Positions 3,370 to 20,054 of a stretch of DNA of 64,000 nt are shown here, one piece after another. Made by a program: the position numbers and the translations under genes. The DNA lies in assembly GCF_036227485.1 (NCBI RefSeq), contig NZ_CP109479.1:372001-436000 (forward strand), written 5' to 3'. The notes below the pieces were generated by a model. That model saw only the letters and a program-made list of their open reading frames with translations, did not search any database and had not been told where the DNA came from. The stretch comes from Streptomyces sp. NBC_01451 (GTDB lineage: Bacteria > Actinomycetota > Actinomycetes > Streptomycetales > Streptomycetaceae). The stretch's first letter is position 1, and the number at the start of each line of letters is the position of its first letter.

Positions 3370-5922
3370 TCAAGGCGTGGTGGCGTCCGGGAGATCCGGC
3401 TGCACCGGTTGCTCGGGCCGACGCTCCGGTGCCGTCAACACGCTGAGCACCATTGTGAGGCCGCCGCCGGGTGTGTCCTCGGCGGCCAGGGTGCCGCCCA
3501 TGGCCTCGGTGAAGCCGCGTGCCACCGCCAGTCCCAGGCCGACCCCAGCACCGCGAGGGGAGTCGCCGTGGCGCTGGAAGGGTTCGAAGATGCGGTCCTT
3601 GGCCTCGTCGGGGACGCCCGGCCCGCGGTCCACCACACGCACCTCGACCCGGTCCGCGATGGCACTCGCCGACACCAGGACCTTCTCCTCCTCCGGGCTG
3701 TACTTGACGGCGTTCTCCACGACGTTGGCGACGGCCCGCTCCAACAGCCCCCGGTCCACGTGGACCATGGGCAGCGTCTCCGGGATGTCCAGCTCGACGC
3801 TGTCCTCCGGTACTCCGCCGAGCGCCATCGGCACCACCTCGTCGAGGTCGGTCTCACGGATGATGGGGGTGACCGTGCCGGTCTGCAGGCGGGACATGTC
3901 CAACAGGTTGCCCACGAGTTGGTCGAGGCGGTCGGCGCCATCCTCTATGGCCTCCAGCAGATCCGCCTGGTCCTCCTCCGACCAGTCGACGTCCTCAGAG
4001 CGCAGGGAGGTGACGGCAGCCTTGATCCCGGCCAGCGGGGTACGGAGGTCATGACTGACGGCTGCCAGCAAAGCCGTGCGGATGCGGTTGCCCTCGGCCA
4101 GTTCCTTGGCCTGGTCGGCCTCGCGCTGGAGTCGGCTCCGGTCCAGGACGACGACGGCCTGGGCGGCGAACGCGGCGAGCACCCGGCGATCGGCGGCCGG
4201 CAGGACCCGCCCCGACAGGGCCAGGGAGATATGGTCACCGATCGGAACGTCGACGTCCGCGTTGTCGGGGTTCTCCGCGGGCCGGGGCCCCACGCTGCCC
4301 GCGCAGGTCCAGGGATCGAGTTCGCCGGTCCGCTCCAGCAGCGCCGCCGACTCCATGCCGAAGGTCTCCCGCACCCGCTCCAGCAGCGCCTCCAGGCTGT
4401 TCTCGCCACGCAGCACGCTGCCCGCGAGGAAGGACAAGATCTCGGACTCCGCGCGAAGCCTGGCTGCCTGATGGGTCCGCCGGGCGGCGAGGTCCACCAC
4501 GGACGCCACCGACACGGCGACCCCCACGAAGATGGCGATGGCGACGATGTTCTTCGGGTCGGCGATCGTCAGGGTGTGTACGGGCGAGGTGAAGTACCAG
4601 TTGAGCAGCAGAGAGCCCACGACCGCCGAGGCCAGCGCCGGGAAGAGGCCGCCGAGGAGTGCTGCCGCCACCGTCAGGGTGAGGAACAGCAGCATGTCGT
4701 TGGCGAGACCCACATTTGGAGTGACGCTGGTCAGCAGGAGGGTAAGCAGGGCGGGGCCGAGCACGCCGACGAGCCAACCCCAGATGATCCGCGACCGGCC
4801 GAGCCGCGCTCCCCGGGCCACCTGGAGCCCACGCCCCTTGCCCGCCTCGTCGTGTGTGATCAGGTGGACGTCCAGGTCGGGGCCGGACTCGCGGGCCACC
4901 GTGGCGCCGACGCCGGGGCCGAAGACGTACTGCCAGCTCCTGCGCCGGGAGACACCCATCACGATCTGGGTCGCGTTGACCCCGCGGGAGAAGTCCAGCA
5001 GAGCCACCGAGACGTCTTCGCCGACGACATGGTGGAAGGTGCCGCCCAGATCCTCCACCAGGGTGCGCTGCACGGCCAGTTCCTTCGGCGAGGCGGCGGT
5101 GAGGCCGTCGCTGCGGGAGATGTAGACGGCCATCACCTCACCGCCGGCACCCTTCTCCGCCAGGCGCGCGGCCCGGCGGAGAAGAGTCCGTCCTTCGGGC
5201 CCGCCGGTCAGACCCACCACGATCCGCTCCCGCGACCCCCAGATCGTCGACACCTGGTGCTCACTGCGGTACTCGGTCAGGTACTCGTCGACCCGGTCCG
5301 CCACCCACAGCAGCGCCAGTTCTCGGAGAGCGGTCAGGTTGCCCGGCCGGAAGTAGTTGGACAGAGCCGCGTCGACCTTGTCCGACTTGTAGATGTTGCC
5401 GTGAGCCATACGGCGGCGCAGCGCCTGCGGGGACATGTCGACCAGCTCGATCTGGTCGGCCCGCCGTACGACCTCGTCCGGCACGGTCTCCCGCTGCCGT
5501 ACACCGGTGATCGACTCGACGACGTCGCCCAGCGACTCCAGATGCTGGATGTTGACGGTGGAGACGACATCGATCCCGGCCGCGAGCAGTTCCTCCACGT
5601 CCTGCCAGCGCTTGTCGTTGCGGGAGCCAGGTATGTTCGTGTGCGCGAGCTCGTCCACCAGCGCCACCTGCGGCCGGCGCGTCAGTACCGCGTCGACGTC
5701 CATCTCGGTAAAGGTGGCGCCCCGGTACTCGATCTCCTTACGGGAGATCTGTTCCAGGCCGTGCAGCATCACCTCGGTGCGCGGCCGGTGGTGGTGCTCC
5801 ACGAAGGCCACCGCGCAGTCGGTGCCCCGCTCGACGCGTCGGTGCGCCTCGGAGAGCATCGCGTAGGTCTTGCCGACGCCGGGTGCCGCGCCGAGGTAGA
5901 TCCGGAGCTTGCCGCGTGCCAT
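3370..5922 (-). CDS. kdpD: Sensor histidine kinase KdpD
   Basis: An 850-residue osmotic/potassium sensor kinase. Domains in order: the KdpD input domain with Walker A motif GAAPGVGKT (residues 11-19); a universal-stress-protein-like domain (about 230-350); a DUF4118 block of four membrane spans (about 395-490); a GAF-like region (about 500-610); a HisKA domain with phospho-acceptor His624 in AAVSHDLRTPL; and a HATPase domain with VVENAVKYS, DRGPGVP and GVGLGL boxes. It lies 7 bases downstream of kdpE, the reverse of the E. coli gene order. It should phosphorylate KdpE at low K+ or high osmolarity. Confidence 0.97.
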   Translation of the reverse strand: MARGKLRIYLGAAPGVGKTYAMLSEAHRRVERGTDCAVAFVEHHHRPRTEVMLHGLEQISRKEIEYRGATFTEMDVDAVLTRRPQVALVDELAHTNIPGSRNDKRWQDVEELLAAGIDVVSTVNIQHLESLGDVVESITGVRQRETVPDEVVRRADQIELVDMSPQALRRRMAHGNIYKSDKVDAALSNYFRPGNLTALRELALLWVADRVDEYLTEYRSEHQVSTIWGSRERIVVGLTGGPEGRTLLRRAARLAEKGAGGEVMAVYISRSDGLTAASPKELAVQRTLVEDLGGTFHHVVGEDVSVALLDFSRGVNATQIVMGVSRRRSWQYVFGPGVGATVARESGPDLDVHLITHDEAGKGRGLQVARGARLGRSRIIWGWLVGVLGPALLTLLLTSVTPNVGLANDMLLFLTLTVAAALLGGLFPALASAVVGSLLLNWYFTSPVHTLTIADPKNIVAIAIFVGVAVSVASVVDLAARRTHQAARLRAESEILSFLAGSVLRGENSLEALLERVRETFGMESAALLERTGELDPWTCAGSVGPRPAENPDNADVDVPIGDHISLALSGRVLPAADRRVLAAFAAQAVVVLDRSRLQREADQAKELAEGNRIRTALLAAVSHDLRTPLAGIKAAVTSLRSEDVDWSEEDQADLLEAIEDGADRLDQLVGNLLDMSRLQTGTVTPIIRETDLDEVVPMALGGVPEDSVELDIPETLPMVHVDRGLLERAVANVVENAVKYSPEEEKVLVSASAIADRVEVRVVDRGPGVPDEAKDRIFEPFQRHGDSPRGAGVGLGLAVARGFTEAMGGTLAAEDTPGGGLTMVLSVLTAPERRPEQPVQPDLPDATTP

Positions 5923-5929
5923 GTCATCG

Positions 5930-6613
<684 letters not shown>

Positions 6614-6767: not shown

Positions 6768-7439
6768 TCAGCTCTGCTTCGCCACGAGTTCCTTGAGCCC
6801 GATGTTGAGTTCGAGGACGTTGACCCGCGGCTCGCCGATGAAGCCGAGGGTGCGGCCGTCGGTGTGGTCGTCGACCAGCTTCTGCACCTGGACGACGGAC
6901 AGGCCGTTGTGCTCGGCGATCCGGTGGACCTGGAGGTCGGCGTAGGCCGGGGAGATGTCCGGGTCCAGGCCGGAGCCGGAGGACGTGACGGCGTCGGCGG
7001 GTACGTCGGAGGGCTTGACCGTGTAGCCGACGGTCGAGTTGTCCTTGACGACGGCGGCCTTGGCGGCGGTCACCCAGTCGATGAGGTCCTTGTTGTCGCC
7101 GGAGCGGTTGGTCGCGCCGGAGAGGATCAGCTTGTACTGGGTGTTGACGCTGTTGCTGCCGAGGCCGTTCTGCGGGCGGCCCTGGAACCACTTCAGGTCG
7201 GGGGCGGGGGTCTCCTCGCCCTTCTTCAACGGCAGGTTGTACGACTGCCCGATCAGGGACGAGCCGACAACCTTGCCCTCCGACTTGATCTCCGAGCCGT
7301 TCGCCTTGTCGTTGAACAGCCCCTGAGCGATGCCGGTGACCACCAGCGGATAGACGACACCCGTGACCAGGGTCAGCACGAGGAGGGCGCGCAGTCCCGC
7401 TCCCAGCAACCGGGCCGTGTTCGTAACCGAGTTGTTCAT
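6768..7439 (-). CDS. kdpC: K+-transporting ATPase subunit KdpC
   Basis: A 223-residue subunit of the KdpFABC potassium pump. One N-terminal membrane span (about 10-32, LLGAGLRALLVLTLVTGVVYPLV) anchors an extracytoplasmic domain. Family landmarks are GSSLIGQSY, the PRPQNGLGSN-like FQGRPQNGLGSNS region, the SGLDPDISPAYADLQ motif and VNVLELNIGLKEL at the end. KdpC supports nucleotide binding by KdpB. The ATG is separated from the kdpB stop by four bases, consistent with translational coupling. Confidence 0.96.
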   Translation of the reverse strand: MNNSVTNTARLLGAGLRALLVLTLVTGVVYPLVVTGIAQGLFNDKANGSEIKSEGKVVGSSLIGQSYNLPLKKGEETPAPDLKWFQGRPQNGLGSNSVNTQYKLILSGATNRSGDNKDLIDWVTAAKAAVVKDNSTVGYTVKPSDVPADAVTSSGSGLDPDISPAYADLQVHRIAEHNGLSVVQVQKLVDDHTDGRTLGFIGEPRVNVLELNIGLKELVAKQS

Positions 7440-7443
7440 GGGA

Positions 7444-9573
7444 TCAGCCGATTCCGGGGATGAGGGAGATGAGCAGGTCGATGATCTTGATGCCGATGAA
7501 GGGGGCGATCAGGCCGCCGATGCCGTAGATCCCGAGGTTGCGGCGGAGCATCCGGTCCGCGCTCATCGGCTTGTACCGCACACCCCGCAGCGCGAGCGGC
7601 ACCAGCGCGATGATGATCAGCGCGTTGAAGACGACCGCGGAGAGGATCGCGGAGTCGGGTGAGGACAGGTGCATGATGTTGAGCCTGTCCAGGCCCGGGT
7701 AGACGGCCGCGAACAGCGCCGGGATGATCGCGAAGTACTTCGCGACGTCGTTGGCGATGGAGAACGTCGTCAACGCACCCCGGGTGATGAGGAGTTGCTT
7801 GCCGATCTCGACGATCTCGATCAGCTTCGTCGGGTTCGAGTCGAGGTCGACCATGTTGCCGGCCTCCTTCGCCGCCGACGTACCCGTGTTCATGGCCACG
7901 CCGACGTCCGCCTGGGCGAGCGCGGGCGCGTCGTTCGTCCCGTCACCCGTCATCGCGACCAGCTTGCCGCCCGCCTGCTCGCGCTTGATGAGGGCCATCT
8001 TGTCCTCGGGGGTGGCCTCGGCGAGGAAGTCGTCGACGCCCGCCTCCTCGGCGATGGCCTTGGCGGTCAGCGGGTTGTCGCCCGTGATCATGACGGTCTT
8101 GATGCCCATGCGGCGCAGCTCGTCGAACCGCTCCCGCATGCCCTCCTTGACGACGTCCTTGAGGTGGATGACGCCCAGCACCCGTGCTCCGGCGGTGTCC
8201 TCGACGGCCACGAGCAGCGGCGTGCCGCCCGCCTCGGAGATCCGGTCGGTGAGCGCGCCGGCGTCCTCGGACACCGCACCCCCCTGCTCCTTCACCCAGG
8301 CCACGACCGAACCGGCCGCGCCCTTGCGGATCCTCCGTCCCTCGACGTCCACGCCCGACATCCGGGTCTGGGCGGTGAAGGCGATCCACTCGGCACCGGC
8401 CAGCTCACCCTGGTGGCGTTCGCGCAGCCCGTACCTCTCCTTCGCCAGCACGACGATGGACCGCCCCTCGGGCGTCTCGTCGGCCAGCGAGGACAGCTGG
8501 GCGGCGTCCGCGACCTCGGCCTCCGTCGTCCCCGCCACCGGCACGAACTGCGACGCCTGCCGGTTGCCGAGCGTGATGGTGCCCGTCTTGTCCAGCAGCA
8601 GGGTGGAGACGTCACCGGCGGCCTCGACCGCCCGGCCCGACATGGCCAGCACGTTGCGCTGCACCAGCCGGTCCATGCCCGCGATGCCGATCGCGGAGAG
8701 CAGCGCGCCGATGGTGGTCGGGATGAGGCAGACCAGCAGCGCCACCAGCACGACCATCGTCAGATGGGTGCCCGCGTAGTCCGCGAGCGGCGGCAGAGTG
8801 GCCACCGCGAGCAGGAAGACGATGGTCAGCGAGGCGAGCAGGATGTTCAGCGCGATCTCGTTCGGCGTCTTCTGCCGGGCCGCGCCCTCGACCAGGCTGA
8901 TCATGCGGTCGATGAAGGTCTCACCGGGCTTCGTCGTGATCTTGACGACGATCCGGTCGGACAGCACCTTCGTCCCGCCGGTCACGGCCGAGCGGTCGCC
9001 GCCCGACTCCCGGATGACCGGCGCCGACTCCCCGGTGATGGCCGACTCGTCGACGGACGCCACACCCTCGACGACGTCGCCGTCCCCGGGGATGATGTCA
9101 CCGGCCTCGCAGACGACACGGTCACCGATGCGCAGCTCGGTGCCGGGCACCTGCTCCTCGCCGTCCTTGACGAGCCGCCGCGCGATCGTGTCGGTCTTGG
9201 CCTTGCGCAGCGTGTCCGCCTGGGCCTTGCCGCGTCCCTCGGCGACCGCCTCCGCCAGGTTGGCGAAGATCACGGTCAGCCAGAGCCAGGCGCTGATGGT
9301 CCAGCCGAACCAGTCCCCCGGGTCCTTGAAGGAGAACACCGTCGTCAGCACGGACCCGACGAGGACCACGAACATCACGGGCGACTTGACCATCACCCGC
9401 GGGTCGAGCTTGCGGCAGGCGTCCGGCAGCGACTTGAGCAACTGCCCGGGGTCGAAGACACCCGCGCCGACCTTGCCTTCGTCCTTGTGGCCGGTCGGCA
9501 CATCGCTGTGCGGCGCCCGGGTCGGGGTGGCTGTGGACATCGTGTCCTCGTGCTTCTCTGTGCGGGTGGTCAT
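7444..9573 (-). CDS. kdpB: K+-transporting P-type ATPase subunit KdpB
   Basis: The 709-residue catalytic subunit, a P-type ATPase. It contains the TGES actuator motif ([13 protein letters not shown]), the phosphorylation motif [13 protein letters not shown], the [14 protein letters not shown] segment, the hinge [20 protein letters not shown] and the C-terminal membrane helices. The ATG at 9573 overlaps the kdpA stop in an ATGA junction. That fixes the start; the open frame upstream of it is only a shadow inside kdpA. Residues 1-25 before the conserved core are polar and typical of actinobacterial KdpB. Confidence 0.97.
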
Positions 9574-11234
9574 GACGCCAGCCCCTCGGCCAGCGGCCCC
9601 AGCGCCAGCGCCGGGAAGTAGGTCAGACCGGTGATGATGAGGATCGCGCCCACCAGCAGACCCGTGAACAGGGGTTTCTCGGTCCGCAGGGTGCCCGCGG
9701 TGACCGGCACCGGCTGCTGCTCGGCCAGCGATCCGGCCAGCGCGAGGACGAACACCATCGGCAGGAAGCGGCCCAGGAGCATGGCCAGCCCCAGTGTGGT
9801 GTTGAACCACTGGGTGTCCGCGTTCAGCCCGGCGAAGGCCGAGCCGTTGTTGTTCGACGCGGAGGTGTAGGCGTACAGGATCTCGGAGAAGCCGTGCGCC
9901 CCGCTGTTGGTCATCGAGTTGCCGGGCGTCGGCAACGCCATCGCCGCCGCCGTGAAGACGAGCACCAGGGCCGGGGTGATCAGGATGTAGCAGGCCGCGA
10001 ACTTGATCTCACGGGTGCCGATCTTCTTGCCGAGGTACTCGGGCGTACGGCCGACCATGAGCCCGGCGATGAACACCGCGATGACCGCCATGACCAGCAT
10101 GCCGTAGAGGCCGGAGCCGGTGCCGCCGGGCGCGATCTCGCCCAGCATCATGCCGAGCATGGTGATGCCGCCGCCGAGCCCGGTGAACGAGGAGTGGAAG
10201 GAGTCCACCGCCCCCGTGGACGTCAGCGTCGTCGACACCGCGAAGATGGACGAGGCACCGACCCCGAACCGGGTCTCCTTGCCCTCCATCGCGCCCCCGG
10301 CGATCTGCAGCGCCGGCCCGTGGTGGGCGAACTCGCTCCACATCATCAGGGCGACGAAGCCGACCCAGATGGTGGCCATGGTCGCGAGGATCGCGTAACC
10401 CTGCCGGACCGAGCCGACCATGACCCCGAAGGTGCGGGTCAGCGAGAACGGGATCACCAGCAGCAGGAAGATCTCCAGCAGGTTGGTGAACGGCGTCGGG
10501 TTCTCGAAGGGATGCGCGGAGTTGGCGTTGAAGTAGCCGCCGCCGTTGGTGCCGATCTCCTTGATGGCCTCCTGCGAGGCGACCGCGCCCCCGTTCCACT
10601 GCTGCGAGCCGCCCATGAACTGGCCGACCTCGTGAATGCCGGAGAAGTTCTGGATCACGCCGCACGCGACCAGCACGACCGCGACGACGAGGGAGAACGG
10701 CAGCAGGATGCGTACGACACCACGCACCAGGTCCGACCAGAAGTTGCCCAGCTCACCGGTACGCGAACGGGCGAACCCGCGCACGAGGGCCACCGCGACG
10801 GCGATGCCGACGGCCGCGGAGACGAAGTTCTGCACGGCCAGACCGGCGGTCTGCACGACGTGGCCCATGGCCTGCTCGCCGTAGTAGGACTGCCAGTTGG
10901 TGTTGGTCACGAAGGACACGGCGGTGTTGAACGCCTGGTCCGGGTCGATCGAGGAGAAGCCCAGCGAGCCGGGCAGGACGCCCTGGAGCCGCTGGAGCAG
11001 GTAGAGGAACAGGACGCTCACGGCCGAGAACGCGAGGACTCCGCGCAGGTAGGCGGGCCAGCGCATCTCCGTGTCCGGGTCGGCGCCGATGCCCTTGTAG
11101 ATCCACTTCTCGACACGCCAGTGCCGGTCGGAGGAGTAGACCCCGGCCATGTAGTTGCCGAGCGGGATGTAGGCGAGTGCCAGTGCCCCTATGAGGGCGA
11201 GCAACTGGAGCACGCCGGCGAGTACGGGACCCAT
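9570..11234 (-). CDS. kdpA: K+-transporting ATPase subunit KdpA
   Basis: The 554-residue K+-binding channel-like subunit with about ten membrane spans. Selectivity-loop signatures are visible: [53 protein letters not shown] and [15 protein letters not shown]. These are the four pore-loop repeats of the superfamily of K+ transporters. It begins 8 bases after the kdpF stop and overlaps kdpB, so the operon is tightly coupled. Confidence 0.97.
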
Positions 11235-11242
11235 GACGTGAC

Positions 11243-11332
11243 TCAGAACCTCTCCGGGAAGATCAGGGCGAGGACGAGATAGCCCAGCAGGGCGACGGCC
11301 ACGACGAGGCCGACGACGTTCTCGGCGGTCAC
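11243..11332 (-). CDS. kdpF: K+-transporting ATPase subunit KdpF
   Basis: A 29-residue single-span peptide, [20 protein letters not shown] followed by LALIFPERF, with the PERF ending typical of KdpF. KdpF stabilises the KdpABC complex in the membrane. The GTG start at 11332 overlaps the stop codon of the small upstream reading frame in a GTGA junction, and the gene ends 8 bases before kdpA. Confidence 0.92.
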
Positions 11333-11412
11333 AGCTTCGTCACCCCCTTGGCGGCGAGAGCCACCAGCGCGAACACCGCGATCGTGGTGACGACGAAGGC
11401 CAGATCGGCCAT
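11329..11412 (-). CDS. Small membrane peptide upstream of kdpF
   Basis: A 27-residue reading frame starting [20 protein letters not shown] and ending AKGVTKL. It has a strong ribosome-binding site (AGGAG six bases before the ATG at 11412), one predicted membrane span (about 5-22) and a positive C-terminus. Its stop overlaps the kdpF GTG, so kdpF translation is probably coupled to it. It is not KdpF itself, which follows. It may be an extra subunit of the pump or a leader peptide whose translation opens kdpF. I know of no described function. Confidence 0.7.
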
Positions 11413-11489
11413 CGAGAACTCCTGGAGTGAGGTTCTGCGAACAGGGACGATTAGAGGAAAGCGTCTCTTTGGCCGGATCGGACCGCACC

Positions 11490-11539
11490 TTGACGGCTCC
11501 CTTACGGCGGCGCCCACGGCTTTGACGGGACTCTTACGG
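11490..11539 (-). promoter_or_regulatory. Four-heptamer operator upstream of kdp
   Basis: Heptamers on the + strand are TTGACGG (11490), CTTACGG (11501), TTGACGG (11522) and CTTACGG (11533). Read along kdp transcription they are CCGTAAG/CCGTCAA direct repeats starting at 0, 11, 32 and 43. Direct repeats 11 bases apart are the usual footprint of an OmpR-family dimer, so this suggests two dimers on one face of the helix. It lies 78-127 bases upstream of the first kdp start codon. KdpE is the inferred ligand. Confidence 0.6.
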
Positions 11540-11576
11540 CGGCGATCAGTACCGTTGTGGCGGTCGGTGATCCGGC

Positions 11577-13418
11577 TCACAGGAGCCGGAAGCGGAGCCG
11601 GCAGATCACCGCGTCCGTCTCCCGCCGCACGGCGTGCGCGACGACTCCGCCCCGCTGGTTCTGCAGCAGCCGCTGCCACAGCCGCTCCGGTTCCGTCTCC
11701 GGGATCAGGACGGTGACGCGGGTGCCCGGCTCGGCGGCGGCCACCTCACGGACGTAGGCGGCTATCGGGCGGCCCAGACTGCGCCGCTCGCTGGTCACCC
11801 GGACGAGGGGCACACCCGGGTCCCACTGGGCCCAGGACCGTTCCAGGGCATGCAGCGCGGCCCGGTCCTCGGGATCCGGACAGCACACGGTGACCGCGCG
11901 GACCTCGTCGCCGAGGGAGGAGGCGGCCGTGAGCGCCTCCGACGTCAGCCTGGACAGGGACGAGACGGGCACGATCACCAGCGAGCGCTCACGGTGCGGG
12001 GCCTCGGGTATACGGCCCAGGCCGAGCCGTTCGCCGATCCGGCCATAGGCGCGGTGCACGGTCTCGAAGGCGGCCACCAGCAGCGGCAGGGCGATCACGA
12101 TCAGCCACGCGCCCTCGGTGAACTTCTCCACCGTGACGACGACGGTCGCGACGCCGGTGAGCAGCGCGCCGAAGCCGTTGAGCGCCGTCCTTGCCTGCCA
12201 TCCCCTCCCCCGCTCCCGGCGCCAGTGGAGGACCATGCCCACCTGGGCGACCGTGAACCCGACGAACACGCCGATCGCGAAGAGCGGGACCAGGGTGTTG
12301 GTGTCGCCGCCGGAGAACACCAGCAGCGCGGCCGAGACGGAGGCCAGCGCCAGGACGCCGTGCCGGTGGACCTGGCGGTCGGCCTTGAGGGCGAAGACGT
12401 GCGGCGCGTAGTTGTCCCGGGCGAGCAGTTTCAGCAGCACCGGAAGCCCGCCGAAGGACGTGTTCGCCGACAGGGCCAGCAGGATCATCGTCGCGAACTG
12501 GATGACGTAGAAGGCCCCGTTGTGGCCGAGGGAGGCGTCCGCGAGCTGGGCGAGGACGGTGACTCCCTCGACCGGCTGGAGGTGGAAGCGGCCGATGAGC
12601 ACCGACAGTCCGATGAGCATCAGGCCGAGGACGGCGCCGAGGGCGACCTCCGCCCGCTGGGCCCGCTTGACGCGCGGGACGCGGAAGGAAGGCACGGCGT
12701 TGGCGAGTGCCTCCACACCCGTCAGCGCGGCACAACCGGAGGCGAAGGCCTTCAGCAGGAGCAGCGCCCCCACGGCCGAGGCGTTGGCGGCGACCACCGA
12801 GGCATGACCGGCCGCGGTCACCGTACTGACCGGCTCGGACCGGAACAGCCCGACGGCGATGACGACGAGGATCGAGCCGACGAAGACGACCGTCGGCACG
12901 ATGAACACCCTTGCCGACTCCACGATCCCGCGCAGATTGACCGCCGTGATCAGGGCGAGAACGGCCAGGCACAGCCACAGCCGGTCGTCGTAGAGGGCCG
13001 GGAACGCCGACGTCAGGGCCGCCACACCGGCGGTGACGGCCACCGCGACGTTCAGGACGTAGTCCAGCACCAGCGAGGCCGCCGCCACCAGGCTCGTACG
13101 CGCCCCCAGGTGGGTCCTGGCCACCGCGTAGGAACCGCCGCCGTCCGGGAAGGCCGCGATCACCTGGCGGTAGGAGGCGACCAGCACCCCCAGCAGACCG
13201 GCGATCGCCAGCGTCACCGGCAGCGTGAAACCGAGCCCGTGCGCACCGGCGGCGGCCAGGACGAGGACGATCGCCTCGGGACCGTACGCCACCGACGCCA
13301 TCGCGTCCAGCGACAGAGCGGCGAGACCGGTGACGGCCGTCAGCCGGTGGCGCTCACCGGTATCAGGCGGCTCCTCGCCGGCCGGGACGGCGTTCGGCTC
13401 GGTGGTCAGAACGGACAT
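11577..13418 (-). CDS. KimA-like potassium uptake permease (APC superfamily)
   Basis: A 613-residue protein with an APC-type membrane core (about 20-440) and a soluble C-terminal region (about 445-613). The start of the core, LAALSLDAMASVAYGPEAI, and the segments FPDGGGSYAVARTHLG and VNLRGIVESARVF match the KimA (YdaO) potassium importer of Bacillus subtilis as I remember it. The genes next door encode another K+ system. I start at the ATG at 13418, with AAGGAG nine bases upstream; the longer open frame to 13667 is low-complexity. Annotation as an amino acid permease is the usual alternative. A four-heptamer array lies upstream. Confidence 0.75.
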   Translation of the reverse strand: MSVLTTEPNAVPAGEEPPDTGERHRLTAVTGLAALSLDAMASVAYGPEAIVLVLAAAGAHGLGFTLPVTLAIAGLLGVLVASYRQVIAAFPDGGGSYAVARTHLGARTSLVAAASLVLDYVLNVAVAVTAGVAALTSAFPALYDDRLWLCLAVLALITAVNLRGIVESARVFIVPTVVFVGSILVVIAVGLFRSEPVSTVTAAGHASVVAANASAVGALLLLKAFASGCAALTGVEALANAVPSFRVPRVKRAQRAEVALGAVLGLMLIGLSVLIGRFHLQPVEGVTVLAQLADASLGHNGAFYVIQFATMILLALSANTSFGGLPVLLKLLARDNYAPHVFALKADRQVHRHGVLALASVSAALLVFSGGDTNTLVPLFAIGVFVGFTVAQVGMVLHWRRERGRGWQARTALNGFGALLTGVATVVVTVEKFTEGAWLIVIALPLLVAAFETVHRAYGRIGERLGLGRIPEAPHRERSLVIVPVSSLSRLTSEALTAASSLGDEVRAVTVCCPDPEDRAALHALERSWAQWDPGVPLVRVTSERRSLGRPIAAYVREVAAAEPGTRVTVLIPETEPERLWQRLLQNQRGGVVAHAVRRETDAVICRLRFRLL

Positions 13419-13513
13419 GGACACGGACTCCTTCTTACCCCTGCCGCGTACGGGAGCTGAGAGGTGCGCGGCTGCGTCCAGTCTCTGTCCGTTTCCGCTA
13501 CATCCGGCGGTTC

Positions 13514-13563
13514 CTTGCGGCTTCCTCACGCCCAGCGGCCCGGCCCTGACGGAACCTTGACGG
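13514..13563 (-). promoter_or_regulatory. Four-heptamer operator between kimA-like gene and DUF1707 gene
   Basis: Heptamers CTTGCGG (13514), CTCACGC (13525), CTGACGG (13546) and TTGACGG (13557) start at 0, 11, 32 and 43, the same geometry as upstream of kdp and in the same orientation relative to the leftward K+ permease gene. The array is 96 bases from that gene's start and 74 bases from the rightward DUF1707 start, so it could serve either or both. Confidence 0.55.
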
Positions 13564-13636
13564 GCGGGTGAAGCGGACGGATTCCGGGGTCTCCGTCGGT
13601 GCTCGCGCGTCACCGGGTCGGCGCTGGAGTGCGGAA

Positions 13637-14176
13637 GTGACCTCCTCGCCCGTGAACTCGCCGTCACCGTCCAGCGAAGACGACCGCGACAGGGCCGTGC
13701 GGCGGCTGCGGGAGCCGTACGCCGAAGGGCACATCGCGCACGAGGAGTTGGACGTACGCCTCGACCAGGTGCTCACCGCCAGGGCGGACAGCGAACGCCT
13801 TTCGGCCCTGTCCTCACTCCCCGCCGCGAAGGCGGACCCCGCCGCCACGATCACCGCCGCCGGACGGATCAAGCGCGTCGGCTCATGGCGGGTGCCCCGG
13901 TTCCTCAAGGTCGCGTCCGCGTACGGCGGTGTGCGCCTGGACCTGTCCCGGGCGGTGATCGAGCATCCGGTGGTCGACATCGAGCTGCGGCTCGGCACCG
14001 GCAGGGCAAGAATCACGGTGCCGCGCGACGCGATCGTCGACTACGAGGATCTGCGGACCGGGTGGAAGGACACGCGGCACGGGCCCCGGCGCGACTCCCG
14101 ACCCGGCGGGCCGACGATCCGGATCTCCGGGACCATGGAGTACGGACGGCCGAGGATCCGCCACGCCCGGCGCTGA
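13637..14176 (+). CDS. DUF1707 domain protein
   Basis: About 179 residues from the GTG at 13637, which has GGAG upstream; a longer frame from 13568 is possible but would overlap the regulatory array. Residues about 15-65 form a DUF1707/SHOCT-like helical motif (DRAVRRLREPYAEGHIAHEELDVRL). The C-terminal half resembles a LiaF/cell-wall-response beta domain (GGVRLDLSRAVI, TVPRDAIVDYE). There is no membrane span or signal peptide. Family members in Streptomyces are uncharacterised, and a role in envelope or turgor stress would be a guess from the neighbours. Confidence 0.75.
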   Translation: MTSSPVNSPSPSSEDDRDRAVRRLREPYAEGHIAHEELDVRLDQVLTARADSERLSALSSLPAAKADPAATITAAGRIKRVGSWRVPRFLKVASAYGGVRLDLSRAVIEHPVVDIELRLGTGRARITVPRDAIVDYEDLRTGWKDTRHGPRRDSRPGGPTIRISGTMEYGRPRIRHARR

Positions 14177-14291
14177 CTCCGCCACGGTCACCGGCCGCCG
14201 CAGGCCCGCACTCCCCCACACGGCCCAGTACACAGCCGCTCCACCGCAACAGCCGTTCACCGAGGTGCCACCGGCGTTGCCACGGCCGGTC

Positions 14292-14309
14292 TTGACGCAA
14301 GCTTGACGC
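14292..14309 (+). promoter_or_regulatory. Heptamer pair TTGACGC x 2 upstream of APC permease
   Basis: Two perfect TTGACGC heptamers start at 14292 and 14303, 11 bases apart, 112 bases before the start of the APC-superfamily permease. This is one half of the four-heptamer array seen elsewhere in the island. No good second pair is present 32 bases away, and here the orientation relative to the gene is reversed. Probably a weaker or single-dimer site of the same regulator. Confidence 0.4.
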
Positions 14310-14420
14310 CGACCTGTGATCCACACCTCCGCCCCGACGTCACTCTCTGCATACGCTGGTGCCGCCGTCCGCGTGATGGCCGATGCCCCACGCCGAGCCG
14401 CACACCGGGAGAGCACGCCG

Positions 14421-16376
14421 ATGGCCACCACCGAACACCCGCCGCCGAGCCGTCTGCGGACGTGGATGCTCCAGGGCCTGTCCGACATGGGCAGAAGCGG
14501 TGGCCTCACGGGCCCGCACGCCCAGCCCGAGCCCGCGCACAAGGGCCAACGGTGGTGGCGGGTGATGTGCCTGACCGGCGTCGACTACTTCTCAACCCTC
14601 GGTTACCAGCCCGGCATCGCGGCCCTCGCGGCCGGTCTCCTCTCCCCCGTCGCGACCATCGTGCTCGTCGTGGTCACCCTGGCGGGCGCCCTGCCGGTCT
14701 ACCGCCGTGTCGCCGAGGAGAGCCCGCACGGTGAGGGCTCCATCGCGATGCTGGAACGGCTGCTGTCCTTCTGGCAGGGCAAGCTGTTCGTCCTGACCCT
14801 GCTGGGCTTCGCCGCCACCGACTTCCTCATCACCATCACGCTCTCGGCCGCCGACGCCTCGACCCACCTGGTCGAGAACCCGCACCTGACCAACGCCCTG
14901 CACGACAAGCAGGTGCTGATCACCATGATCCTCGTCGCCCTGCTCGGCGCGGTCTTCCTCAAGGGCTTCCTGGAGGCCATCGGCGTCGCGGTGGCCCTGG
15001 TCGCCGTCTACCTGGGGCTGAACGTCGTGGTGGTCGCCGTGGGCCTGTGGCACGTCATCACCGAGGGTCACGTCATCACCGACTGGTCCAGTGCCCTGAC
15101 CGCCGAACACGGCAACGTCTTCGTCATGGTCGGCGTGGCGCTGATCGTCTTCCCCAAGCTCGCGCTCGGCCTGTCCGGTTTCGAGACCGGCGTCGCGGTG
15201 ATGCCGCACGTCAAGGGCGACGACAGCGACACGGAGGAGAGCCCGAAGGGCCGCATACGGGAGACGAAGAAGCTGCTGACCGCCGCCGCGGTCGTCATGA
15301 GCGTGTTCCTGATCGCCACCAGCTTCATCACCACCCTGCTGATCCCGGAGAAGGAGTTCGAGTCCGGCGGCAAGGCCAACGGCCGTGCCCTGGCCTACCT
15401 GTCCCACGAGTACCTGGGCAACGCCTTCGGCACGGCCTACGACGTGTCGACGATCGCGATCCTGTGGTTCGCGGGCGCCTCCGCGATGGCCGGCCTGCTC
15501 AACCTGATGCCCCGCTACCTGCCCCGCTACGGCATGGCCCCGCACTGGGCACGGGCCGTACGCCCGATGGTCATCGTCTTCACACTCATCGCCTTCCTCG
15601 TCACCTGGATCTTCGACGCGGACGTGGACAAGCAGGGCGGCGCGTACGCCACCGGCGTGCTCGTGCTGATCAGCTCGGCGGCGATCGCCGTGACCATCGC
15701 CGCCCGCAAGGCCGGCCAGCGCGGCTGGACGATCGGATTCGCCGTCATCTCGGCGATGTTCCTCTACGTCACCGTCGTGAACGTCATCGAGCGCCCCGAC
15801 GGCGTCAAGATCGGCGCCTGCTTCATCGCCGGCATCATCCTGGTCTCGCTGCTGTCCCGGCTGGCCCGCGCCTTCGAACTCCGCGTCACCAGCCTGACCC
15901 TCGACCCGATGGCGGAACGATTCATCCGGGACATGGCCAGCCGCAAGATCCGGCTCATCGCCAACGAGCCCGACCAGCGCGACAAGGCCGAGTACCGCGA
16001 CAAGATCGAGCAGATCCGGGCCGACAACGACATGCCCGAGCAGGAGGACTTCGTCTTCGTCGAGGTGACGGTCACCGACCCCTCCGAGTTCGAGGCGGGC
16101 CTGACGGTGCGCGGCGAGGTGCTGCACAACCGCTACCGCGTCCTGACCCTGGAGTCCGCGTCCATCCCCAACGCCCTCGCCGCGCTGCTCCTGCACGTCC
16201 GCGACGAGACGGGCCGTATCCCGCACATCTACTTCGAGTGGACCGAGGGCGGTCCCTTCGCCAACTTCCTGCGCTTCTTCCTCTTCGGACAGGGCGAGGT
16301 CGCCCCCGTCACCCGAGAAGTCCTGCGCGAGGCGGAACCGGACCGCGCCCGCCGTCCCCGCGTCCACACCGGCTGA
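14421..16376 (+). CDS. APC-superfamily permease, possible cation/K+ transporter
   Basis: A 651-residue protein with about twelve membrane spans (about 45-510) and a soluble C-terminal domain (about 515-651). The first span region reads [20 protein letters not shown]. The soluble end includes [20 protein letters not shown] and [21 protein letters not shown]. It is commonly annotated as an amino acid permease. I lean to cation uptake because it lies in a K+ island, shares the heptamer pair and has a large cytosolic tail like KUP and KimA. The ATG at 14421 follows GGGAGAG; the frame upstream of it is unlikely to be translated. Confidence 0.7.
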
Positions 16377-16387
16377 CCCGGGCGCTC

Positions 16388-16437
16388 CCATCAGGCTTCC
16401 GTCAGGGTTCGCGCGTGCGGCATCAGGGTCCGGTCGG
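16388..16437 (+). promoter_or_regulatory. Four-heptamer operator, inverted orientation
   Basis: On the + strand CCATCAG (16388), CCGTCAG (16399), GCATCAG (16420) and CGGTCGG (16431) start at 0, 11, 32 and 43. These are reverse complements of the heptamers upstream of kdp, so the array points rightward toward the repeat protein at 16848, about 410 bases away. The rest of the 471-base gap holds nothing else that I recognise. The gap may contain a long leader or an unseen promoter. Confidence 0.5.
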
Positions 16438-16847
16438 CGACCACCGCCCGGCCGCGCACAGCCGTCTGGCGTCAGCCGCACGGCACCCTGGCCGCGGCGC
16501 CGTCACCGGCCTGACCGGACCCCGGCCGGGAACCTCGGCACGGGACGGCGGTGCGCACCCGCACCGCCGGTGAACACATGGCCCGGCTGGGACTCGGCCC
16601 GATCGGCAGCCTCACTCCTCGGCCCCGACCTCCGCCAAGAGCCTGCCGCACTGTTTCCGGGAGGACCTCACCCTCCTCGCAGCCACCCTGCCGAAGGGCC
16701 GATACCCGGAGGTGGCCGCACCTGCCGAGGTTCGCGCCGACCGCCTGCCCGTCCGGCCGACGCGCCGGAGACACACCTCAATGCCCCGCGCCCCCGGGAC
16801 ACCTGTCCCCGCCTCGCGAACAGCCCCGTACAGAGAGGTCGCCCACG

Positions 16848-17219
16848 ATGACCGAGCACGGCCCGAACACCCAGTCCGCCCAGTCCGCCCTGTCCTCGCT
16901 ACGGGACCGGGCGGCGCAGGGTGTCCCCGGTGCGGTCGAGGAGCTGACCGGACTCGCCGCCGAACTCGGCGACATGAACGAACTGCGCCGTCTCGCGGAC
17001 GCGGGCCACGCCGACGCGACCGACGAGCTCATCCAACTCGCGTCGGAGCGGGGCGACCTCGCGGAGCTTCGGCGCCTGGCGGACGGGGGCAACGCCACGG
17101 CCACCGACCAGCTGATCGAACTCGCCACCGAGCTGGACGACTTGGCCGAGCTGCGGCGCCTGGCCGACCGCGGCAATGTCACCGCGGCCGAGCAGCTCGC
17201 GGAACTGACCGCCGAGTGA
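16848..17219 (+). CDS. Helical repeat protein with 28-residue repeats
   Basis: A 123-residue acidic, soluble protein with AGAGAGG before its ATG. After about 40 residues it consists of near-identical 28-residue helical repeats, each starting ELRRLAD-xGxxxATDxLIxLAxE (starting near residues 46, 74 and 102; the last is cut short). The pattern is two short helices per repeat, like HEAT- or Sel1-type solenoids, which bind proteins. No catalytic motif is present. A heptamer array upstream and the K+ cluster on the left hint at a regulatory partner of a transporter or kinase, but that is speculation. Confidence 0.75.
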   Translation: MTEHGPNTQSAQSALSSLRDRAAQGVPGAVEELTGLAAELGDMNELRRLADAGHADATDELIQLASERGDLAELRRLADGGNATATDQLIELATELDDLAELRRLADRGNVTAAEQLAELTAE

Positions 17220-17285
17220 CCTGTACCCGAGCCTGCCGGCAGCGGCCTCGCCCGAGGACGGCACCCCCGCCGGACACCTTGAACA

Positions 17286-17314
17286 GGCGGGCCGGTACCT
17301 CGCACCGGCCCGCC
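17286..17314. terminator. Bidirectional hairpin between convergent genes
   Basis: Perfect 11-base arms (17286-17296 and 17304-17314) with a 7-base loop, between the stop of the repeat protein and the stop of the leftward alpha-oxoamine synthase. Confidence 0.65.
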
Positions 17315-17353
17315 CGGGCAATCGCCCAGCGGCGGGGCAGGAACCCGTAGGCC

Positions 17354-18688
17354 TCAGCGGTCGGCCTGTCGAGCCTCGCGGATGCACGTGTCGAGGATGT
17401 CGACGGCCGTGTCGACGTCGTCGTCGCTGTGGTCCGCCATGGCCTGTAGACGGAAGCGCGCTGCGTCGGAGGCGACCGCGGGCTGCTCGACGAGATGCGC
17501 GACGAGCCCGGCCCGGGCGATGAGGCCGGAAGCCGTACGGCCGGTGGGCGTGTCGCCGATGAGGACCGGCACGACCGGGCAGACCACGTCGCCCATGACC
17601 TCCAGGCCCCGCGCCGTCAGCCCCGCGCGCAGCCGGGTGGCGACGGCCTCGACCGCCCTCCTCCGCCGGGCGCCCTCCGGCGAGGTCACCACGGACAGGG
17701 CGGCCAGGGCCACCGCGGTCTGTACGGGGGTGATGGCGCTGGAGAAGGTCTGCGGGCCGCCGAACATCCGCACGTACTCCCGCGCCGAGGCGGACGGCGT
17801 GGCCAGGAAGCCGCCGGTGGTGGCGAACGTCTTCGAGAAGGCGCCGACGACGAAGTCGACCTCTCCGAGGATGCCGTGCACCTCCGGCTGACCGCCGCCG
17901 TGTTCGCCCATGGCGCCGAAGTCGTGGGCGACGTCGACCATCAGCTGGGCGCCGTACTCGCGGCAGATGCCGAGGAGTCCGGCCAGGTGCGGGGTGTCGG
18001 AGTCCATGGAGAACACGCCCTCGGTGACGACGAGGACGGCGTTGGTGGTGTCGGTCGCACGGATCCCGGCCAGTTGCCGCCGCACGGCGTCGTTGTCGAG
18101 GTGCCGGAAGAACCGCACCTTCGCCCCGCCGGCGGCGGCGCCCTGGCGCAGCGAGTCGTGGGACAGACTGTCGAGCAGGACGTGGTCACGGCGGTGCGTC
18201 AACGACCGGATGGTGCCGAAGCCGGCCGCCCAGCCGGTCGGGAAGAGCGCCACGTGGTCGGTGCGCAGGGCCTCGCCCAGTCCGGCCTCCAGTGCCTTGC
18301 TGATCGGGGTGGCGCCGCCCAGGGCTGGGGAACCCGCGGTGAGCGGGCCGTAGTCGCGCAGGGCCTGGTGCGCGGCGTCGAGGACGGCCGGGTGCGCCGT
18401 GAGGGACAGGTAGTCCTGACCGCCGAAGTTGGGGCCACGGGTGACCACTCCGGTGTCGGACACGACGGTGGCCCGGGTGCTCAGGCGGGTGTCGTAGCGG
18501 CGGAAGTACGGCCACAGGTCGGCCTGTTGGCGGTCGAGCTGCCAGGCGAGGTAGGCGTCGTTGCGGGTGCCCAGGTCGGGCCCGGACACCGTGCGGAAAC
18601 GCATGATGTCCTTCTCACGGGCATCGGTCCGCCGGCTCCCGAGCGGCCCGGCCGCAGGGGTTGTGATGCCGGGCACAGTGGTCGTCAT
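17354..18688 (-). CDS. Alpha-oxoamine synthase family PLP enzyme
   Basis: A 444-residue fold-type I PLP enzyme of the family that condenses an amino acid with an acyl-CoA (5-aminolevulinate synthase, KBL, BioF, serine palmitoyltransferase). Landmarks: NFGGQDYLSLTAHP near the N-terminus, FPTGWAAGFGTI, the Asp of VDVAHDFGAMGEHGG that pairs with the cofactor, and GAFSKTFATTGGFLA, whose Lys forms the aldimine. Two starts are plausible: ATG 18688 after GAGGAG, and ATG 18604 after AAGGA. No acyl carrier or sphingolipid genes are nearby, so the substrate is open. A complete heptamer array lies upstream. Confidence 0.8.
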   Translation of the reverse strand: MTTTVPGITTPAAGPLGSRRTDAREKDIMRFRTVSGPDLGTRNDAYLAWQLDRQQADLWPYFRRYDTRLSTRATVVSDTGVVTRGPNFGGQDYLSLTAHPAVLDAAHQALRDYGPLTAGSPALGGATPISKALEAGLGEALRTDHVALFPTGWAAGFGTIRSLTHRRDHVLLDSLSHDSLRQGAAAGGAKVRFFRHLDNDAVRRQLAGIRATDTTNAVLVVTEGVFSMDSDTPHLAGLLGICREYGAQLMVDVAHDFGAMGEHGGGQPEVHGILGEVDFVVGAFSKTFATTGGFLATPSASAREYVRMFGGPQTFSSAITPVQTAVALAALSVVTSPEGARRRRAVEAVATRLRAGLTARGLEVMGDVVCPVVPVLIGDTPTGRTASGLIARAGLVAHLVEQPAVASDAARFRLQAMADHSDDDVDTAVDILDTCIREARQADR

Positions 18689-18794
18689 GGTCGTCGTCTC
18701 CTCGGGACGGGCTGGTGAGCCCGCTGCGTGGGGGTGCGCCCCGATCAGGGGCTGCTACGACGCTACGACCGGAATGCCGGACAACTCCTGGCCG

Positions 18795-18844
18795 CTGACG
18801 GTCCCTTGATCTGCGGGACGCCTTTCCTGACGCCGGTTTGACGC
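18795..18844 (-). promoter_or_regulatory. Four-heptamer operator upstream of alpha-oxoamine synthase
   Basis: CTGACGG (18795), TTGATCT (18806), CTGACGC (18827) and TTGACGC (18838) start at 0, 11, 32 and 43, exactly the kdp geometry and orientation relative to the leftward gene. The array is 107 bases from that gene's upstream start. The remaining 370 bases up to the MHYT gene contain no other feature I can name; a diverging promoter for the MHYT gene presumably lies there. Confidence 0.55.
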
Positions 18845-19214
18845 GCCCGGTGGCTCGGTCGCCGCGCCTGCCGGTCGCCGCGCCTGCTTGTTGCCGGGCC
18901 GGGCGCGCCGAGGGGAACGACGGTGCCGCAGTGTCGCAGTCTCCCGTGGCTCCGACGGGGCTGCTTTGCGGTGAAGAATGGCGAAGTATCGATTCGGCGA
19001 ACGATTGTGAGCAATGTGGAGGAGGTGTGCGCTTGATGTGATTGAATCAAGCGGAACTTGGCCAAATGGCTTGATCTGCTTGCCCGGCTGTCCCTGCCCT
19101 GCTTCTCCGGCTGGACCGCCGTGCGCCGTGGTCATGTCCGTCCGAGGCCGGGCGGGCGCGTGCGTCACTCCGAGTCGACGGTGCCGCCCGCCCTCGCACG
19201 TGAAGGGAACTCGT

Positions 19215-20054
19215 ATGACCGCCACCGTCTCCAACTTTCACTACGGTGCCGTGACCCCGGTGGCCGCCTACCTGATGGCCTGCCTCGGCGCGGCGCTCGG
19301 GCTGCGGTGCACGACGCGGTCGCTGCGGCGCCCCCACCGAAGAGCCGGCTGGCTGGCGCTGGGTGCCGTATCGATCGGCTGCGGCATCTGGACCATGCAC
19401 TTCATCGCCATGATCGGGTTCAGCGTCCAGGGCGCCCTGGTCAGTTACGACCCGACGAAAACACTCCTCAGTCTCGCGGTCGCGATCGCCGTCGTCGCCG
19501 TCGGCGTCTTCCTCGTCGGCTACCGGGGCGGTTCACCGGCGAACCTGGGCATGGCGGGCACGATCACCGGTATCGGGGTCGCGGCCATGCACTACCTCGG
19601 CATGGCCGCCATCCACACCAACGGCGGCCTCCACTACGACGCGGGAACCGTGGCGCTGTCCGTCGCGATCGCCGTCGCCGCCGCCACCGCGGCTCTGTGG
19701 GCGGCCGTCTCCATCCACCGACTCTGGGCGAGCCTCGGAGCGAGCCTGGTCATGGGCGTGGCCGTGACCGGTATGCACTACACGGGCATGGCCGCGGTCT
19801 CCGTCCACCTCACCGGCGAGTCCGCCGTCTCCCAGTCGTCCACCAGCCTGATGTCGTTCCTCCTGGCCATGCTCGCCGGCCCGCTCACCGTGCTCCTGAT
19901 CGCCGGCGCGATCGTCATGTTCGACCCGGACATGATGCTCGGCGACGACGAATGGGACCGGCCGGCGTACACGCCCTACGACTCCGGTGACAGCTTTCCC
20001 GTACAGCAGTCCGCGCAGCATCCCGCCCAGCCGCCGCAGCGCTACGGCTCCTGA
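19215..20054 (+). CDS. MHYT-domain integral membrane sensor
   Basis: A 279-residue protein with about seven membrane spans and three MHYT repeats, each carrying the M-H-x-x-x-M signature: WTMHFIAM (61-66), AAMHYLGM and TGMHYTGM. MHYT domains are proposed to bind copper through Met and His at the outer membrane face and to sense O2, CO or NO. Here there is no GGDEF, EAL or kinase domain, only a short cytoplasmic tail rich in Pro and Gln. The ATG at 19215 follows AAGGGAAC. Whatever it signals to must be a separate protein. Confidence 0.9.
   Translation: MTATVSNFHYGAVTPVAAYLMACLGAALGLRCTTRSLRRPHRRAGWLALGAVSIGCGIWTMHFIAMIGFSVQGALVSYDPTKTLLSLAVAIAVVAVGVFLVGYRGGSPANLGMAGTITGIGVAAMHYLGMAAIHTNGGLHYDAGTVALSVAIAVAAATAALWAAVSIHRLWASLGASLVMGVAVTGMHYTGMAAVSVHLTGESAVSQSSTSLMSFLLAMLAGPLTVLLIAGAIVMFDPDMMLGDDEWDRPAYTPYDSGDSFPVQQSAQHPAQPPQRYGS

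Follow-up and report, generated by a model that had tools for sequence, protein, structure and literature searches.

Four-box arrays in a kdp island of Streptomyces

The stretch analysed here, referred to as the window, comprises 64,000 nucleotides of Streptomyces sp. NBC_01451 (contig NZ_CP109479.1, positions 372,001 to 436,000 of the forward strand), and carries an island with the kdpFABC genes, the kdpE and kdpD genes for a response regulator and a sensor kinase, a kimA-like gene, a second gene for an APC-type permease, and genes for a 28-residue-repeat protein and an alpha-oxoamine synthase-like enzyme (Table 1). The intergenic regions of this island carry putative operators of KdpE, made of four heptamers with starts at 0, 11, 32 and 43. 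The first-pass annotation, made from the sequence alone, had described four such arrays (here A to D) and one further pair of heptamers (here site E), and the coordinates that it gave for all these sites proved correct when re-read from the sequence.

Table 1. Arrays, site E and neighbouring genes of the window
Feature	Positions	Strand	Boxes, context or evidence
Array A	11490..11539	+	28/28: TTGACGG, CTTACGG, TTGACGG, CTTACGG; upstream of kdpF (- strand, leftward), 77 bp to kdpF start
Array B	13514..13563	+	26/28: CTTGCGG, CTCACGC, CTGACGG, TTGACGG; upstream of kimA (- strand), 95 bp to start
Array C	18795..18844	+	25/28: CTGACGG, TTGATCT, CTGACGC, TTGACGC; upstream of alpha-oxoamine synthase gene (- strand), 106 bp to start
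Array D	16388..16437	-	24/28: CCGACCG, CTGATGC, CTGACGG, CTGATGG; first box poor; starts 11 bp past APC-type permease stop; oriented as operator for a gene on its right
Site E	14292..14309	+	perfect TTGACGC pair, 111 bp before APC-type permease start; scores 22 with degenerate partner pair 14260-14277
kdpD, sensor kinase	3370..5922	-	PF02702 1.7e-98; under NCBIfam KdpD cut-off
kdpE, OmpR-family response regulator, proposed ligand	5930..6613	-	PF00072 + PF00486; 4kny KdpE E 4.4e-63
kdpC	6768..7439	-	PF02669 1.6e-62
kdpB	7444..9540	-	TIGR01497; start set at ATG
kdpA	9570..11234	-	PF03814 4.1e-230, TIGR00680
kdpF, 27 aa	11329..11412	-	read from sequence; adjoins arrays in relatives
kimA-like gene, predicted K+/H+ symporter	11577..13418	-	KimA 6s3k E 2.9e-118, residues 21-597 of 613
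Second APC-type permease gene, distant KimA relative	14421..16376	+	no Pfam or NCBIfam match; 23% identity to window KimA, E 5e-11
28-residue-repeat protein gene	16848..17219	+	translation
Alpha-oxoamine synthase-like gene (pyridoxal phosphate enzyme; BioF/serine palmitoyltransferase relatives)	17354..18688	-	PF00155 1.2e-29; under every NCBIfam cut-off listed

Each array was scored against four copies of [CT]T[GT]ACG[GC] at the fixed spacing, with a maximum of 28. After scanning both strands of the window, arrays A to D, including the inverted and weaker D, turned out to be its four best places. Four places scored 24 or more. By comparison, 60 first-order Markov simulations gave 0.017 such places on average (maximum 1), and 704 alternative geometries 0.043 (maximum 3); with about 0.02 to 0.04 places expected per window, the pattern is clearly more frequent here than by chance. 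Single pairs showed no significant excess in the window (10 matches where 6.6 were expected, with 17 of 100 shuffles reaching 10), so that the weight of evidence rests on the four-box geometry; since the box word was derived from the window's own sites, the independent tests are those in other genomes. The boxes of arrays A to C lie on the template strand of their genes. The Rfam scan of positions 11000-19500 gave no family at the gathering score.

Rarity in the genome and conservation within the genus

In the whole genome of this strain (a single contig of 10.27 Mb), the pattern with up to three mismatches was found at four places, while the reversed pattern used as control was found at none. 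The four matches are arrays A, B and C, and one at 1,804,474 preceding a second kdp operon, the KdpA of which is 99.8% identical to that of the window. The search of 199 genus genomes (own genome included) with up to two mismatches yielded 317 matches in 140 genomes, compared with a single match of the reversed control (summed from counts transcribed by hand).

For the analysis of geometry we used the best 80 of 554 named kdp loci, of which 78 are from Streptomyces and 2 from 'Actinobacteria bacterium', with KdpA up to 98% identical; because some strains are near-identical, and NBC_01549 and S3(2020) contribute two loci each, these do not represent 80 independent events. The kdp upstream region scored at least 24 in all 80 loci and at least 25 in 79 of them. 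When the pair spacing was varied from 7 to 15 and the pair offset from 24 to 41, the combination of 11 and 32 gave 142 matches with a score of 25 or more, whereas the other 161 combinations gave 15 jointly, none of them more than 3. At the cut-off of 24, the true geometry gave 168 matches against a mean of 0.26 (maximum 5) for 150 random geometries. In the 80 kdp arrays most box columns carry about 2 bits and most columns of the central spacer (columns 18-29) less than 0.9, the N4 linkers contain a conserved TC(C/T), and spacer columns 27 and 30 are among the few others conserved. As the 80 arrays were picked by box score, the conservation of the boxes is partly built in; the geometry test, the control genes and the outside genera described below are less circular.

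Downstream of the kdp array, starting at a distance of about 27 bp, the strongly conserved element GTTTCCTC-N-AA-N-cGTCC was identified in the window (within 11413-11489) and in the 80 relatives, and this is probably the promoter core. The location of the array just upstream of this element suits a role in activation. The element is unlike the standard -35/-10 pair, which may hint at the sigma factor involved.

Target genes in relatives

Gene starts of the putative targets in relatives were fixed by tblastn and the upstream regions were scored with a cut-off of 24 out of 28, after removal of matches that started past query residue 40, fell below the set identity limits or had less than 300 bases upstream. 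The array was detected upstream of kdpA (80/80), kdpF (54/54), kimA (20/27), the APC-type permease gene (15/27), a universal stress protein (USP) gene (13/15), and the genes referred to as c21 (14/15), c20 (5/5) and c6 (22/35), and also before the second kdpD, KdpD2 (8/21), a CPA1-type antiporter gene (5/13) and a DUF1707 gene (1/1). The oxoamine synthase gene (0/1, score 22) and the repeat-protein gene (0/2) did not reach the cut-off. For control genes from the same loci the counts were 2/81 for kdpB, 0/79 for kdpC, 0/43 for kdpD and 1/59 for kdpE. Some of the target counts are not independent, because one divergent region is common to USP and c21 and another to KdpD2 and the antiporter, and because c6, like the APC-type permease gene, often shares the upstream region of kdp or kimA.

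By profile matches, the USP is gene c13 (PF00582), c8 is a member of the ornithine/diaminopimelate (DAP)/arginine decarboxylase family and c18 a Na+/H+ exchanger, while c20 and c6 gave no Pfam match; c21 presumably resembles the SAV_915-type proteins. The MerR/TOBE gene c10 (0/15) and the decarboxylase-like c8 itself (0/16) carried no array upstream, the latter being preceded by c21. In three 3-kb loci without kdpA (L012, L016 and L034) arrays precede kdpD. One array, in L007, lies near a gene that we read as menG-like; no counterpart of this array recurs in the loci examined, and it may be due to chance.

The gene product downstream of array B had been annotated as a KimA-like permease, in good agreement with its near full-length similarity to KimA (6s3k), which indicates a KimA homologue with predicted K+/H+ symport activity. 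The 20 array-bearing kimA starts (27 starts in 26 loci) all carry the array in the same orientation as array B. Distances between array and kimA of 81-110 bp were seen in relatives. The second APC-type permease, recurrent in many kdp islands, is a candidate for an uncharacterised K+ or cation transporter.

Occurrence outside Streptomyces

The pattern is not restricted to Streptomyces, and both its word and its geometry also occur in other genera. Of 148 genomes of the class, 68 gave a KdpA match, and the set of 57 kdpA upstream regions examined here consists of 21 of 30 KdpA loci plus 36 fetched stretches [omitting the second copies of G322 and G207 and the partial matches of G250, G235, G313 and G220, and counting G331 and G261 twice each]. 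Pairs were scored with a threshold of more than 9 bits for the first pair and more than 4 bits for a second pair within 80 bp. A first pair was detected in 35 of the 57 regions, compared with 10 of 570 shuffles, and in 32 of the 35 it has the orientation of array A. Second pairs stood at an offset of 32 in 18 of 23 cases, with 21 in four and 22 in one, and at no other place within 80 bp.

In one outside genus the 11-bp pair upstream of kdp has drifted even though KdpE is present: TTAGCGG-N4-TTAGCGG stands in L172 and L176, and TTAGCGC is the second box in L165 and L169, while L160 keeps TTGACG; this contrast offers a natural test of coevolution between the box word and the recognition helix.

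KdpE and its known binding sites

The KdpE encoded in the window, 5 kb away from array A and next to kdpD, is composed of a receiver and a winged-helix domain, and its closest relatives are KdpE proteins; the top NCBIfam model is likewise KdpE, though the score stays under the strict equivalog cut-off (241.6 of 325 bits). Among solved structures the closest are the E. coli KdpE entries (4kny/4kfc), and the C-terminal part aligned to 4kny has YLRxYMxxLRxKLE in common with it. The activation of kdp by KdpE has been described for both Mycobacterium smegmatis (PMC5401905) and E. coli (PMC7657598).

In M. smegmatis, KdpE is reported to require the 22-bp element CCGTAAAGAAACCATCAAGGCC at the promoter PkdpF (PMC5401905). 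The complement of CCGTAAAGAAACCATCAAGGCC contains TTGATGG-TTTC-TTTACGG, corresponding to one pair of the operator described here, and on a matrix derived from Streptomyces kdp pairs alone the 22-mer scores 17.5 bits, a value reached by none of 200,000 shuffles. In the same report, the 18-bp footprint, lacking most of the second box, was unbound and longer probes down to 22 bp were bound (PMC5401905), as a two-box site predicts. The site shares with our arrays the word, the 11-bp period and the location upstream of kdpF, and it is also oriented like array A, provided that the paper prints the coding strand; it differs in that one pair is reported, the kdpDE promoter is unbound and no further direct target is given in the text covered (PMC5401905). 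The paper nowhere uses the term 'direct repeat', and its authors noticed no similarity to other KdpE sites (PMC5401905). Although set apart from those sites by its authors, the mycobacterial element can now be interpreted as a single pair from an operator that occurs in many genera of the class.

E. coli KdpE is homologous to the window KdpE and has the same domain plan. Its known site, which we take to be TTTATACTTTTTTTACA (present as such in the E. coli stretch L115), resembles our arrays in its 11-bp repeat and differs from arrays A to C in reading along the gene. On the Streptomyces matrix this site ranks second among 590 places of the kdpF-ybfA region, and fourth with an AT-rich background. 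In the same region of E. coli K-12, 89 bp upstream of the known site (L115:993-1010), TTGATGGTTTATTTACAT comes near to the mycobacterial element TTGATGGTTTCTTTACGG, but the likeness is not significant, since 374 of 5000 shuffles reach it. KdpE is the textbook case of a regulator with a single locus, and a study of the E. coli protein terms kdpFABC its sole target, yet describes 31 ChIP-exo peaks and adds adeP, uxaA and uxaC (PMC7657598).

Histories of site E and arrays C and D

The perfect TTGACGC pair noted at site E exists, and comparison with relatives shows that it belongs to the second permease gene and is conserved there: a TTRACG-type pair stands 107-159 bp before this gene in 24 of 27 relatives, and 9 of the 27 carry a four-box array with a score of at least 24.

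Array C was likewise found where it had been placed, upstream of the alpha-oxoamine synthase gene, with a score of 25, but it is only partly conserved in relatives. The synthase gene is present in 4 of 121 genus genomes (own genome included) and in the named locus L066. In the four other synthase loci the array scores 25 (L149), 23 (L148) and 22 (L066) or is shifted (L147), and in L149 and L148 it has been kept while much of the flanking promoter diverged.

As to array D, its position to the left of the 28-residue-repeat gene was correct, whereas the target is likely to be another gene, the small c6 gene, now lost. The array has counterparts scoring at least 24 within 220 bp past the stop of 11 of 29 related permease genes, and among 12 of these sites that were inspected, 10 have c6 (172-173 aa where cleanly called) beside them. 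In L079 the order is c6, a gene that we read as GbsR/MarR-like, and the repeat-protein gene. No c6 match was found in the window, and positions 16586-16858 contain a weak remnant (40%) of the gene that stands between c6 and the repeat-protein gene in L079. The repeat protein is present in 1 of 121 genus genomes (own genome included), with relatives in L053 (66%) and L079 (76%) located farther downstream of a D-like array. Since c6 adjoins the sites of relatives and is absent here, while a remnant of the middle gene and the repeat gene itself remain, array D most likely served the lost small gene in a decayed operon, the 28-residue-repeat gene being the last gene left.

Identity of the regulator

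Taken together, the rarity of the pattern, its conservation before kdp and the agreement of a published KdpE element with one of its pairs support the proposal of the first-pass annotation that KdpE is the simplest ligand, and we consider it very likely that sites of the type of A to E are KdpE operators. Because direct repeats of 11 bp are frequent in the OmpR family, with GTTCACC for PhoP and GTNAC-N6 for AfsQ1 and GlnR, another member of this family (PhoP, GlnR, AfsQ1, MtrA or an uncharacterised one) might bind the arrays instead, and the two outside genomes (G217 and G275) with a pair and no detectable KdpE would fit such a regulator. The PhoP box is similar in its tandem direct repeats with 11-nt period, but its word is different, as had been noted from the window and as the column counts of the 80 kdp arrays agree: none has the C of GTTCACC before AC at columns 2, 13, 34 and 45, nor the G at columns 0, 11, 32 and 43 that a GTNAC box of the GlnR, AfsQ1 or MtrA type would have, whereas a G follows AC in 75-80 of the 80. 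Two pairs held at a constant offset of 32 bp are not known as a hallmark of PhoP. Given also that the site accompanies kdp in many genera and coincides with one KdpE element from the literature, a different regulator appears improbable. The alternative that GC-rich intergenic DNA gave rise to the arrays by chance or through mobile repeats, or that they are sigma-factor -35 hexamers with a fortuitous period, draws on the resemblance of TTGACG to a -35 hexamer and on the lack of enrichment of single pairs in the window; this is contradicted by the spacing test and the per-gene target counts, and is at odds with the specific geometry, the recurrence of the same downstream genes, the variable central spacer and the template-strand boxes of arrays A to C, leaving it a negligible chance.

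A more serious question is whether arrays C and D are relics of the island that are in decay or have no function, with KdpE operating at kdp, kimA and the APC-type permease gene. These two arrays are the weakest (25 and 24), the synthase and repeat-protein genes are rare in the genus, array C is degenerate or shifted in two relatives, and the gene adjoining D in relatives is missing here; on the other hand, array C has been kept amid diverged promoters in L149 and L148, and D-like arrays occupy the same place in 11 of 29 relatives. On balance we regard the relic status of C and D as unlikely, though with appreciable weight.

Several observations stand against the assignment of the arrays to KdpE and its potassium response. 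Within the genus, 54 of 194 genomes with KdpE show no array at up to two mismatches, a limit beyond which weaker arrays were not sought there; in favour of KdpE, the array is present in the other 140 and in none of five genomes without KdpE (E <= 1e-60; Fisher p 0.002), an association that may reflect joint loss or gaps, since the kdp genes of these five were left unchecked and one genome is 81% complete. Outside the genus, 22 of the 57 kdpA regions carry no pair above 9 bits, and KdpE is matched in 20 of these 22 genomes (hand-matched); some of these regions have changed words such as TTAGCGG-N4-TTAGCGG and CTCACAG-N4-CTAACGG, which suggests that the box word has drifted in those lineages. 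G217 and G275, conversely, contain kdpA and the pair with no KdpE at E <= 1e-50, and presence or absence of KdpE at the level of the class therefore does not discriminate between regions that have the pair and those that lack it. Site E is oriented along its gene, opposite to arrays A to C; the counterpart of array C in L066 (at 111 bp) is degenerate, and the boxes in L147 have one extra spacer base (by eye); no array lies within 450 bp of either repeat-protein relative, the one of L053 being about 610 bp upstream. The E. coli KdpE site resembles the pair, but not significantly, since its score was attained in 873 of 5000 shuffled regions, and sequence homology is not claimed. Finally, unpublished data cited in a 2023 review indicate that KdpDE is dispensable for development of S. 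venezuelae and for its growth at 0.5 M NaCl or KCl (PMC10117811), a result from growth in salt that leaves K+ limitation outside its scope.

Proposed potassium-response regulon

In the model that we propose, each 18-bp pair (YTKACGS-N4-YTKACGS, an 11-bp direct repeat) would be the site for one dimer of phosphorylated KdpE, and two pairs 32 bp, or three helix turns, apart would place two dimers on one face of DNA just upstream of the promoter, from which transcription would be activated when KdpD senses K+ limitation. The binding of KdpE in Streptomyces, activation rather than repression, the stoichiometry of dimers and the K+ signal are what we infer for this model, and activation of the targets other than kdp would hold by analogy. 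In the genome of this strain the operator would serve both kdpFABC operons, kimA, the second APC-type permease (by way of a single good pair), the gene for the oxoamine synthase, and what remains of the operon with the repeat gene; in other Streptomyces it would serve in addition the USP gene, a two-gene unit with the DAP/ornithine-decarboxylase-like protein, a second kdpD together with the CPA1-type antiporter, and kdpD at loci without kdpA nearby.

The array before kdp in relatives, the match to the mycobacterial site and the other genes so marked lead us to suppose that KdpE here probably runs a larger potassium-response programme than in E. coli. With less assurance, we lean towards the view that KdpE of Streptomyces, instead of switching one target, heads a regulon for potassium scarcity that is read through the duplicated operator, comprising two K+ importers, the APC-type permease, a second KdpD with the CPA1-type antiporter, the USP gene, its own kdpDE operon and pyridoxal phosphate enzymes (DAP/ornithine-decarboxylase-like and oxoamine synthase) as possible sources of organic cations or modified lipids at low K+. 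In E. coli a USP acts as scaffold for KdpD and KdpE. KdpE operators as such are known, and what would be new is the duplicated geometry and the enlarged regulon; a search of open-access literature, in which few subscription papers are included, gave no account of this operator and none of a KdpE regulon in Streptomyces. According to the 2023 review, KdpDE has not been analysed in any Streptomyces model, and KimA of B. subtilis is an importer inactivated by cyclic di-AMP (PMC10117811). The fixed geometry of the operator provides a list of testable promoters for Streptomyces KdpDE and ties kimA to the Kdp system, and the conserved arrangement of two pairs offers a natural system for the joint action of two OmpR-family dimers.

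Additional kdp loci of the genome

A third kdpE with its own kdpD is located near 2.22 Mb (L188), a stretch in which no array of 23 or more was detected. The kdpF-A-B segment is present in two copies, window 7246-11538 and L187:10225-14522 (about 1.80 Mb on the contig), which are 98.2% identical over 4303 bp, whereas the KdpE proteins beside the two copies are merely 78% identical, and no kdpD was seen beside the second copy within L187. Judging from this difference in identity, the two kdpF-A-B copies look like the product of recent gene conversion.

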